From positions 1 to 32,148 of the IMG/VR virus record IMGVR_UViG_3300009164_000027: 32,148 nt of DNA. One strand, written 5' to 3'. The notes under the pieces were generated by a model, which was not told the origin of the DNA, searched no databases, and saw only the letters and a program-made list of their open reading frames with translations. This document shows positions 3,830-25,258 of this stretch, one piece after another (position 1 is the first letter of the stretch; every line of letters begins with the position of its first letter). The position numbers were made by a program, and so were the translations under genes. The stretch is from a virus.

Positions 3830-4002
3830 TAATAAACTATTTAAAAGAAGATGTTAAAGGTGCTGCAAGTAAAAAGGAATATGCCAAAAAGGGTGACAAA
3901 GTATATGTCATTGGTCATACAATTAATATGGTACTGGTGTCTGATTTTAGTGGGAATAAGTTTTGGGTTAATAAAAATAAATTAAGTAATGAAAAATTGT
4001 AA
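3826..4002 (+). CDS. Small SH3-like hypothetical protein (58 aa)
   Basis: I choose the ATG at 3826, which overlaps the preceding stop as ATGA, over the in-frame ATG at 3811. The 58-residue protein has a lysine-rich N-terminus and alternating strands (KVYVIGHT, MVLVSDFSG, KFWVNKNKL) that resemble a small SH3-like barrel. Its function is unknown. The 14-base overlap with the next gene suggests coupled translation with the DnaA-like protein. Confidence 0.65.
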   Translation: MIINYLKEDVKGAASKKEYAKKGDKVYVIGHTINMVLVSDFSGNKFWVNKNKLSNEKL

Positions 4003-4372
4003 ACCATGTATCATACATCCATTTCAAATAAGGGAAACATTATTAAAACCTGAAAAAATAATCAGATTATGTTGCAAAATATTACATAGAGATTATGAAA
4101 AAGTTATAAGCAGATGTAGGAATCAAGAATTAGTTGAAGCAAGATTTATGATTATGACACTTTTAAGAAATGATATGTCTTTAAGATTATCATTAAAACA
4201 AATTGCTAACCATTTTGGTTGCAAAGATCATACAACTGTTATAAATGCTTTGTATAAGAATGATATTTATTGTGAAACAATTCCTGAATACAATCAACTT
4301 TATTACAGATTGCATTTAGATATATATGGTCATGATAAATATTATAAGTATTCTTACAATTCAGAAATTTAG
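3989..4372 (+). CDS. Stand-alone DnaA domain IV-like DNA-binding protein
   Basis: The 127-residue protein carries a DnaA C-terminal (domain IV) fold with no AAA+ ATPase part. The domain spans about residues 22-92: an N-terminal helix, then LVEARFMIMTLLR, then LSLKQIANHFGCKDHTTV, which fits the DnaA signature with the DHTTV box at 80-84 that contacts DNA bases in DnaA. It could mark a phage origin, compete with host DnaA, or act as a regulator; which is unknown. It lies between ERF and the replication protein genes. Four cysteines lie in the N-terminal half (residues 4, 7, 28 and 29). Confidence 0.8.
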   Translation: MKNCKPCIIHPFQIRETLLKPEKIIRLCCKILHRDYEKVISRCRNQELVEARFMIMTLLRNDMSLRLSLKQIANHFGCKDHTTVINALYKNDIYCETIPEYNQLYYRLHLDIYGHDKYYKYSYNSEI

Positions 4373-4375
4373 TTG

Positions 4376-4397
4376 TATATTTGTTGATATAAATTTG
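4376..4397 (+). promoter_or_regulatory. Overlapping -7 boxes, probable promoter for the leader RNA
   Basis: Two exact TAnnTTTG boxes occur 14 bases apart: TATATTTG (4376-4383) and TAAATTTG (4390-4397). No good -33 TTTG sits 19-21 bases upstream of either; the nearest is TTTA at 4368-4371, 18 bases before the second box. The second box would start RNA near 4403, at the 5' edge of the complementary element GTACGAAC. Confidence 0.5.
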
Positions 4398-4400
4398 CAA

Positions 4401-4483
4401 ATGAAGTACGAACCATTTGCAGATTATTTTAGAGAAATCTAAATAAAAGCCATCTGTTCGTACCAGGTGGCTATCTTATTTTT
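4401..4483 (+). ncRNA. Structured leader or small RNA with a possible pseudoknot
   Basis: Three elements fit together. A 5' strand GTACGAAC (4406-4413) is the exact complement of GTTCGTAC (4456-4463). Hairpin 1 is TTTAGA-GAAA-TCTAAA (4428-4443) with a GNRA tetraloop. Hairpin 2 is GCCATCTG (4449-4456) with CAGGTGGC (4464-4471), whose seven-base loop TTCGTAC pairs with the 5' strand; a T-rich tail (4472-4483) follows. The fold would be a pseudoknot, or an alternative helix that breaks hairpin 2. The RNA also contains a 13-codon frame (ATG 4401 to TAA 4442, MKYEPFADYFREI), which allows an attenuation-like mechanism. The HNH start codon lies 12 bases past hairpin 2. I do not recognise a known RNA family. 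Confidence 0.5.
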
Positions 4484-4807
4484 ATGAAGTTAAACAATAG
4501 TAAAATTAGGTATTTGAGAGAAAAAAATGCAAAACAAAAAGGTGATCATACAAAAGTAGAATGGGAAGAAATGAAAGAATTTTTTAACAATACTTGTGTT
4601 ATTTGTTTTGGTGAAAGTAATTTAGAAAATGTTGAAAAAGACCACATAATACCTTTATATCAAAATGGTAGTAATTCATTACAAAACATACAACCTATTT
4701 GTGCTTTATGCAATACAAGAAAAGGTTATAGTAATACAGATTTTAGAGAATTTTTAGCTTGTTTTTTAGACAAAGAATTACCAAACAAATACAAAAATCC
4801 TTATTAA
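4484..4807 (+). CDS. HNH endonuclease
   Basis: The 107-residue protein has a complete zinc-type HNH motif: CVIC (C38, C41), DHIIPL (D53, H54), N68 in a SLQNIQP context, and CALCN (C73, C76, N77). HNH nucleases cut DNA with one metal ion in a beta-beta-alpha fold. The N-terminal 30 residues are basic and probably bind DNA. Position in the replication block suggests a DNA-processing or homing role (inference). Its start lies directly behind the hairpin at 4449-4471, so translation may be controlled by that RNA structure. Confidence 0.88.
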   Translation: MKLNNSKIRYLREKNAKQKGDHTKVEWEEMKEFFNNTCVICFGESNLENVEKDHIIPLYQNGSNSLQNIQPICALCNTRKGYSNTDFREFLACFLDKELPNKYKNPY

Positions 4808-4809
4808 TT

Positions 4810-5481
4810 ATGTCAAAAGATCCTGCATTTTTATTTTATTCAAATGATTTTCTTACTGGAACTTATTTAATGTCTGATGAACAAGTTGGAAAATATATTA
4901 GAATTTTATGTTTACAACATCAAAAAGGAAGTTTAAATGAAAAAGATATGTTGAAGATATGTAAAACATATGATGAAGATATATTTGCAAAGTTTAAAAA
5001 AGAAGGTGATTTATATTATAATACAAGATTAAAAGAAGAAACTGAAAAAAGAAAATCATATAGTGAAAGTAGAAAAAACAATAGAAAGAAGAAAGATATG
5101 TCAAACATATGTAAAACATATGTTCCACATATGGAAAATGAAAATGAAAATGAAAATGAAATAGTAAATAATATAATATTAAATGGTAAAAAATATTTAA
5201 ATTCTGATTTTAATGATTTACCTGAACAATACATTATTTCATCAATTGAGCAGATTAAAATTCAAAAGCAACAAACAATTACTAAAGACCAGGTACAAAA
5301 ACTTTGGGAAACTTTTAAACTTGAAAAATTAGTTGGTGAAGATTTTTATCAATCTGAATCAAAAGTTTATCAATACTTTGTAAATTGGATTAAGAAACAA
5401 AAATTTGAAAAAAATGAAACAAGAACTAATCAAGAAAGAACCATTGATGCCTACAACCAATTCCTTGACAGATATCGTTAA
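4810..5481 (+). CDS. DUF1376-like phage replication protein
   Basis: I start at the ATG at 4810 (MSKDPAFLFYSNDF), two bases after the HNH stop. Residues 1-75 resemble the DUF1376/phage replisome-organiser winged-helix domain: FLTGTYLMSDEQVGKYIRIL, then a helix and DEDIFAKF. A basic, repeat-rich linker follows (about 78-118: SRKNNRKKK, then a Glu-Asn run), then a helical C-terminal domain (about 125-223) containing VYQYFVNWIKKQKF. Proteins of this layout typically bind the phage origin and recruit the helicase loader. The linker DNA carries repeats that may be the origin itself, as in lambda O. It overlaps the next gene by 35 bases. Confidence 0.75.
   Translation: MSKDPAFLFYSNDFLTGTYLMSDEQVGKYIRILCLQHQKGSLNEKDMLKICKTYDEDIFAKFKKEGDLYYNTRLKEETEKRKSYSESRKNNRKKKDMSNICKTYVPHMENENENENEIVNNIILNGKKYLNSDFNDLPEQYIISSIEQIKIQKQQTITKDQVQKLWETFKLEKLVGEDFYQSESKVYQYFVNWIKKQKFEKNETRTNQERTIDAYNQFLDRYR
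4957..5122 (+). repeat. 16-base direct repeat ATATGTAAAACATATG, two copies (4957-4972, 5107-5122)
   Basis: The 16-mer occurs at 4957-4972 and again at 5107-5122, exactly 150 bases apart and in frame, encoding ICKTY both times. The second copy is flanked by more CATATG-like palindromic units (ACATATG 5105-5111, CACATATGG 5126-5134). Its location inside the replication gene linker makes it a candidate for initiator binding sites. Confidence 0.6.
5134..5163 (+). repeat. Hexamer tandem repeat (GAAAAT) in replication gene linker
   Basis: Four perfect GAAAAT units (5134-5157) and one variant GAAATA (5158-5163) encode a Glu-Asn run. They are followed by an AT-only-like stretch (about 5161-5220) that would melt easily. 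Since the unit is six bases long, slippage would change linker length without shifting the frame. Confidence 0.85.
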
Positions 5482-23638: not shown

Positions 23639-24601
23639 ATGTCATTAAATTTATCAGGATTAACTTCATATACAAAACAACTTGTTAAACCTTTATTAAC
23701 AAGTGCAGTATTTGATGCAAAGACACAACAAATGATTAAGGACAATGGTATAGTAATACCAGGTGCTAAATCAGCAGTACAAATTCCTTTAATGGATACT
23801 GATGCTGCATTTCAAACAGATGCTTGTGGTTGGAATTATAGTGGTACAACTACTTTCACACAATCTACAATTACAGTAGGTAAAATCAAAATTGAAGAAG
23901 CAATTTGTGTTAAAGATTTAGAAGCATACTTTACACAAGAAGCATTAAAATCAGGTTCTACTTATACTGAATTTCAGAATGCAGATTTCCAAGCAGCATA
24001 TCTTGACAAGAAAAATAAGAGAATTGCAGCACAATTAGAAACAGCAATTTGGCAAGGTGATACAACTGGTAGTGGTGGTATGAACTTAAACAAGTTTGAT
24101 GGTTTCCAAAAATTAGTAGCATCAGCAGCAGTAAATGCAAATGTTAGTGGTTACAATGGAACAACTGGTGCAATTACAACTATTAATAAAGATACAGTTG
24201 TTCAAGCAACTGAAGGTATTTACAAAGCAATTCCTGTAGCAGTTTTGGCTAAGGGTGATGTTAAAATCTTTGTTGGAAATGATTGGTACAGATTATTAAT
24301 TCTTGCTTACAGAGCATTGAATTTATTTGCTTACAATCCACAAGATGTTAATTCAGCAAGTTTTGTTTTACCAGGTACAAATGTTGAAATAGTTTCAGTA
24401 AATGGTTTAAATGGAACTGGTGATGCTTATGCAGCAAGTTTATCAAACATGGCAATTGCAGTTGATTTAGTAGATGAAGATCAATCATATACAATGTTTT
24501 ATAGCCAGGATTTTAACGAGATAAGATTCAGAGCTGCTTTTAAATTGGGAGTTGGAACTGGATATGCTTCAGAGTGGGTTAAATTTGTAGCAGCAATCTA
24601 A
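23639..24601 (+). CDS. Major capsid protein (HK97-fold, by position and sequence)
   Basis: The 320-residue protein has an N-terminal segment (SLNLSGLTSYTKQLVKPLL), a helix-strand core (IPLMDTDAAFQTDACGWNY, TITVGKIKIEEAICVKDL) and a spine-helix-like region around DFQAAYLDKKNKRIAAQLET. The end (FRAAFKLGVGTGYASEWVKF) fits the P-domain edge of HK97-type capsids. It lies between the scaffold-like gene and a terminator, and its A-rich leader suggests high expression. It is a stand-alone shell protein, without a fused delta domain. Confidence 0.82.
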   Translation: MSLNLSGLTSYTKQLVKPLLTSAVFDAKTQQMIKDNGIVIPGAKSAVQIPLMDTDAAFQTDACGWNYSGTTTFTQSTITVGKIKIEEAICVKDLEAYFTQEALKSGSTYTEFQNADFQAAYLDKKNKRIAAQLETAIWQGDTTGSGGMNLNKFDGFQKLVASAAVNANVSGYNGTTGAITTINKDTVVQATEGIYKAIPVAVLAKGDVKIFVGNDWYRLLILAYRALNLFAYNPQDVNSASFVLPGTNVEIVSVNGLNGTGDAYAASLSNMAIAVDLVDEDQSYTMFYSQDFNEIRFRAAFKLGVGTGYASEWVKFVAAI

Positions 24602-24624: not shown

Positions 24625-24654
24625 AAAGGGTGGTGCAATAAACACCACCTTTTT
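24625..24654 (+). terminator. Rho-independent terminator after the capsid gene
   Basis: AAAGGGTGGTG (24625-24635) pairs with CACCACCTTTT (24643-24653) over 11 bases with one G-T pair, around the loop CAATAAA; the T-run follows directly. It lies 24 bases after the capsid stop. Partial read-through would keep downstream genes at lower expression than the capsid. Confidence 0.9.
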
Positions 24655-24667
24655 AATACTTATAAAT

Positions 24668-25204: not shown

Positions 25205-25226
25205 TAAATAATAAATAATAAATGAG

Positions 25227-25258
25227 AAGCACCTGCCTATTGAGTAGGTGCTTTTTTT
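25227..25258 (+). terminator. Rho-independent terminator
   Basis: AAGCACCT (25227-25234) pairs perfectly with AGGTGCTT (25246-25253) around an 11-base loop, with a run of T to 25258. It lies 22 bases after the preceding stop. Confidence 0.9.

Follow-up and report, generated by a model that had tools for sequence, protein, structure and literature searches.

In this work, a candidate phage RNA unit of ~90 nt was recognised, which would extend as a discrete element from a promoter box of the Bacteroidota type as far as an intrinsic terminator, and in which the pairing of two loops appears to be selected while the paired letters are free to change. From comparison of related sequences, we place the probability of this reading at roughly 0.93. 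The unit lies in the window (the whole 32,148-base IMG/VR virus record) at positions 4376-4484, from promoter box to terminator, between a gene with a DnaA_C domain (3989-4372) and an HNH gene (4484-4807). A Watson-Crick helix of 6-8 bp can form between the loop of its first hairpin (H1) and the loop of its terminator hairpin (H3). There are 37 instances in related uncultured phages, carrying 27 different loop codes, and a separate terL-adjacent variant (E-type) occurs in 20 contigs. Taken together with recognition between RNA copies in trans as the leading, unproven mechanism, the proposal stands at slightly better than even odds.

Anatomy of the unit and its neighbours

The features of the unit and of the adjoining genes in the window are as follows.

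3989 to 4372, plus strand: upstream gene, 127 aa, Bac_DnaA_C the only recognised domain (Pfam, E = 2e-14)
4376 to 4383, plus strand: promoter-like -7 box TATATTTG, TAnnTTTG, Bacteroidota type
4392 to 4425, plus strand: hairpin H1, 12 bp with a 10-nt loop AAGTACGAAC, arm 4392-4403 pairing with 4414-4425 (fold and relatives)
4406 to 4412, plus strand: kissing strand 1, GTACGAA, pairing with 4457-4463; C4413 can extend the helix to 8
4428 to 4443, plus strand: small hairpin H2, 6 bp, GAAA loop (fold)
4449 to 4471, plus strand: hairpin H3, the terminator hairpin, 8 bp with a 7-nt loop (fold and relatives)
4457 to 4463, plus strand: kissing strand 2, TTCGTAC, the entire H3 loop, reverse-complementary to kissing strand 1 (GTACGAA)
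4472 to 4483, plus strand: U-rich tail TATCTTATTTTT 3' of H3, up to the HNH start codon (sequence)
4484 to 4807, plus strand: HNH endonuclease gene, 107 aa, no other domain found (Pfam); not a constant partner
4810 to 5481, plus strand: next gene; in several other phages its relatives come immediately 3' of the RNA

All three hairpins are present in the predicted minimum-energy fold of the window sequence, and the 125-nt fold has a z of -4.96, with none of 200 shuffles equally stable. An earlier sequence-only reading had described an 8-bp hairpin, confirmed here at 4449-4471, and the exact reverse complementarity of GTACGAAC (4406-4413) to 4456-4463, which was likewise confirmed; this 8-mer has no other exact occurrence within the window. 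The complementarity had been placed between a loop and the 5' end of the RNA, but 4406-4413 sits in the H1 loop, so that the contact is a loop-to-loop kiss. The 6-bp hairpin of that reading is present at 4428-4443 with a GAAA loop, but the GNRA character of the H2 loop is not conserved. The terminator is present in all instances; its U tract is modest in the window, and the T runs are stronger in most relatives.

Two TAnnTTTG boxes had also been pointed out, TATATTTG at 4376-4383 and TAAATTTG at 4390-4397. Both are exact, but the second overlaps the 5' arm of H1 and is stem sequence, and relatives conserve the first. TAnnTTTG is the Bacteroidota -7 consensus (PMC7366714). The motif is not enriched across the window (42 found vs 66 expected), and thus the promoter claim rests on its positional conservation among relatives, where an exact TAnnTTTG stands immediately 5' of H1 in 30 of the 37 instances (for the window, the first box was counted). 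A TTG at -33 accompanies it in some instances only. The transcription start is predicted at ~4388-4392. With its own promoter box and intrinsic terminator, the unit is, by sequence and conservation, a putative independent small RNA gene. An antisense partner was considered and rejected, as no minus-strand TAnnTTTG is conserved downstream among the 37 instances.

The DnaA_C gene adjoins the RNA in most replication-module instances, and in several members the proteins encoded 3' of the RNA have matches to families of replication initiation or primosomal proteins. The protein of 4810-5481 has no family match in the window itself, while replication initiation families are matched by some of its relatives; in the window the HNH gene intervenes between the RNA and this replication-gene family. 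The special link to the HNH gene suggested by the sequence-only reading was not supported by comparison, since the downstream genes vary and in one locus (L004), with 97% identity in the DnaA_C protein, the same RNA is followed by a different gene. An HNH-linked RNA (homing element or omega RNA) was rejected for the same reason. From position 3494 of L004 onward, that other gene starts where the window has the HNH gene, and L004 matches the window's next protein from residue 28 only, as if the N-terminus had been exchanged. The nearest cellular relatives of TerL that were found belong to Pollutibacter soli. By these relatives and by the promoter type, the phage hosts are probably Bacteroidota.

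Relatives and covariation of the kissing helix

Among loci fetched by TerL similarity, the RNA was found after DnaA_C genes in twelve more, with quite different letters. Further instances were reached via a conserved H2 string, a second string, the downstream replication-gene family and a second DnaA_C query. Most instances came from searches blind to the loop match; a few (e.g. L012) are known only from a scan that demanded it, and for these the loop match is therefore circular. This descriptor scan gave 23 matches in 1.65 Mb of fetched loci vs 0 in a block-shuffled control. Nearly all of the 23 are real RNAs and two look spurious (L078, and the minus strand of L123, which is the reverse of a real instance). 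Over the 37 instances, the match within one RNA is 6-8 nt, whereas mismatched RNA pairs mostly reach 3-5 nt.

The E-type units in L073, L074 and L082 have the same architecture and lie downstream of terL. By a string search in which the loops were unconstrained, this type was found in 20 phage contigs, all of them matched; together with L082 these contigs hold eight codes, every one matched. L074 carries both forms with different codes, GTAGTGC at ~2870 and GTTGCGG at ~11567. Model R1, made without any E-type sequence, matches the E-type in at least 7 whole phage records, which supports a common architecture of the two forms, and they may also share descent. From the E-type unit to the next plus-strand gene (>100 codons) there are ~200-480 nt, so the unit is not always an immediate leader. 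The intergenic stretches of 200-480 nt that follow the E-type RNA, at L073:4220-4470 and likewise in L082, L217 and L224, contain blocks common to phages, e.g. TGCAAGTAGACCACTACCTC and GATTGGGTCTTAACACGGG, and may contain another RNA; Rfam gave no match in L073, L082 or L074.

Covariation was counted in three separate alignments with the kissing helix entered as a pseudoknot, because pooled alignments (A2, A3) shifted group A by one column in H3. In the window subgroup (n=8), 99.3% of cells are paired overall; H1, H3 and the kissing helix each reach 100%, with changes on both sides in 4 pairs of H1, 5 pairs of H3 and 4 of the 7 kissing pairs. Groups B/C (n=11) are 93.5% paired overall and again 100% in the kissing helix, where 4/7 pairs changed on both sides. 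For the E-type (n=12) the overall value is 98.0%; the kissing helix is 100% paired and all 7 of its pairs changed on both sides, while 15 of the 23 stem pairs are invariant. Apart from a single G-U in the E-type, beside an alignment gap, every kissing cell is Watson-Crick. H2 is usually part of the unit; it has different sequences in other subgroups and covaries in the E-type, whereas in group C the hairpin itself is absent or weak. The observed values, the covariation score among them, were reached by 0/500 shuffles on every measure in the three alignments, with the exception of the count of further pair types, which was reached in 16/500 (window subgroup) and 6/500 (E-type). Moreover, the signal is lost when the partner strand is slid by 1-3 columns. 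The idea of a pseudoknotted small RNA, put forward by the sequence-only reading, is supported by these data: the relatives keep the hairpin together with its loop-loop complement while the letters of that complement change, so that the refuting case named by that reading, a hairpin retained with its complement lost, did not occur.

The same reading knew of no family with such a layout, and the searches agree. Neither the window nor the RNA of 18 further loci matches any Rfam 15 family at gathering score; the best window match at a permissive threshold has E = 0.48. In cultured phages, comparison of the DNA and of the DnaA_C protein gave nothing more than chance-level pieces, and TerL matches only at <60% identity. 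A sample of ~690 Bacteroidota genomes gave 20 matches to R1, none with a convincing kiss, and the E-type string is absent from 395 genomes, searches by which divergent members can be missed. No description of such an RNA was found in open-licence papers. Extra copies in the window were also rejected, since R1 has weak matches at 24576 and 25183 but these are ordinary terminators that lack kissing loops. The stretches 24626-24655 and 25226-25258, weakly matched by R1, are ordinary intrinsic terminators in the structural-gene region.

Code changes and the possible roles of the kiss

By comparing the RNAs, some near-identical ones were found to have different codes. Between L016 and L113, 8 of the 16 kissing positions differ and all are re-matched, vs 0 of 72 compared positions elsewhere, in flanking DNA that is ~90% identical; the Fisher value of 3.6e-7 (on 8/16 vs 0/66) is descriptive, as this pair was picked after looking. 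For pairs with different codes, groups A, E and G, and modestly B, show more differences at the kissing positions than elsewhere, in a comparison that omits same-code pairs and is thereby biased upward. In group D, the kissing positions differ less than the rest, and the codes do not evolve faster than the stems. Recombination between already differing RNAs could explain some of the code differences.

Because several near-identical RNAs carry different and fully re-matched codes, the pairing would most likely be a self-specific tag. We hypothesize that infection gives rise to the RNA as a free small RNA, with the loop-loop pairing as its working part, and that copies from the same phage would recognise each other in trans through their loops. 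Such recognition would feed back on phage replication or gene expression, and the RNAs of related phages with other codes would be ignored. Trans self-recognition through a loop code is held tentatively, at odds clearly short of even. Its fuller version is a little more doubtful still; there, trans kissing would serve as an identity tag for copy-number sensing or same-code superinfection exclusion, with diversifying selection on the code. The place of the E-type beside terL fits replication control poorly, and one code is common to different phages (L014 and the window); both points speak against the trans reading, as do the result for group D and the possible recombination.

A kiss confined to one molecule was weighed about equally with trans self-recognition. 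By this account, H1 and the terminator hairpin would hold a single RNA in a compact and stable fold, it would not matter which letters form the kiss, and the RNA would act through a protein or another target. Both loops do lie in one short RNA and always match, and pairing that is kept while its letters are free is what a structural contact predicts. Covariation does not distinguish kissing within a molecule from kissing between molecules. On the other hand, the four paired code changes between L016 and L113 against an unchanged remainder are hard to reach by neutral drift. Furthermore, in L012, L123 and L079, a stacked helix of 33-37 bp would have to be bridged by 12-nt linkers, which by a geometry estimate demands a strong bend.

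It is rather unlikely that the unit is a cis attenuator, i.e. a 5' leader to the gene that follows, in most cases one for a replication initiator, in which H3 would set read-through and the H1 kiss would help or hinder H3 formation. In the replication-module form, the only one for which such a role is possible, H3 is followed at ~8-17 nt by the next start codon, too close for another promoter to fit, and initiator genes follow in several instances. The downstream genes nevertheless vary (HNH, 70-aa proteins), the spacing of the E-type units from the next gene does not suit a leader, no conserved antiterminator pairing was seen by eye, and the code changes would be left unexplained.

Much less probable is an oligomer-forming RNA, e.g. 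a packaging RNA, whose loops would link molecules into a ring or cage. In the phi29 packaging RNA, loops on one RNA match each other across molecules, and here too self-matching loops would permit rings and the E-type follows terL. However, Rfam, which includes the known packaging and ornate RNAs, gave no match, most instances are not near terL (only the E-type is, and the window type is far from it), and ordinary TerL proteins are present. Attenuation by a leader peptide can practically be dismissed: the 13-codon ATG frame noticed earlier exists in the window at 4401-4442, but its ATG is absent, by reading, in other subgroups and in L031, L041, L048, L049 and others, and within the subgroup the frame differs in length and sequence (e.g. 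MKYEPFTN* in L014).

Comparison with known systems and significance

The CI RNA of satellite phage P4 is also a small phage RNA in which pairing gives self-specific control. That RNA arises by processing of a long leader, and the target sites it pairs with are separate from it; no such sites were found for the present RNA. Type III toxin-antitoxin RNAs were rejected as a match, as the unit is single, without tandem repeats, and is followed by HNH, replication initiator or small unknown genes. HEARO / IscB omega RNAs were rejected on the lack of an Rfam match and on the 107-aa HNH protein, which has no further domain and is not conserved beside the RNA. A peptide-dependent leader was rejected with no conserved short frame over the 5' strand. 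In the ColE1 RNAI/RNAII system, short matched loops have codes that differ between related replicons and set compatibility (PMC9458437). The phage RNA resembles it in its short matched loops and its location near replication functions; however, ColE1 uses a sense-antisense pair from opposite strands, whereas the phage RNA carries both loops itself and has no conserved antisense promoter. GOLLD and ROOL, also phage RNAs, have kissing contacts that covary, and one of these contacts was proved intermolecular; the GOLLD contact thus illustrates that covariation does not separate the two modes (PMC12286853). These RNAs are hundreds of nt long and are in Rfam, in contrast to the ~90 nt of the present unit.

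The RNA is a compact family new to Rfam and to the cultured-phage records searched, found in environmental phages with Bacteroidota-type promoters, and its loop-loop helix, which links a hairpin with the terminator, covaries strongly. A code that changes more than the stems in several subfamilies is unusual for a purely structural contact. For RNA studies, the matched loops also offer a naturally occurring collection of kissing-loop pairs. It can be tested whether loop codes in RNA allow phages to distinguish self from non-self in co-infection or replication. If this is true, the unit would be a one-RNA counterpart of the two-RNA plasmid incompatibility systems, and the loop logic of plasmid copy control would be carried out by one self-complementary RNA.
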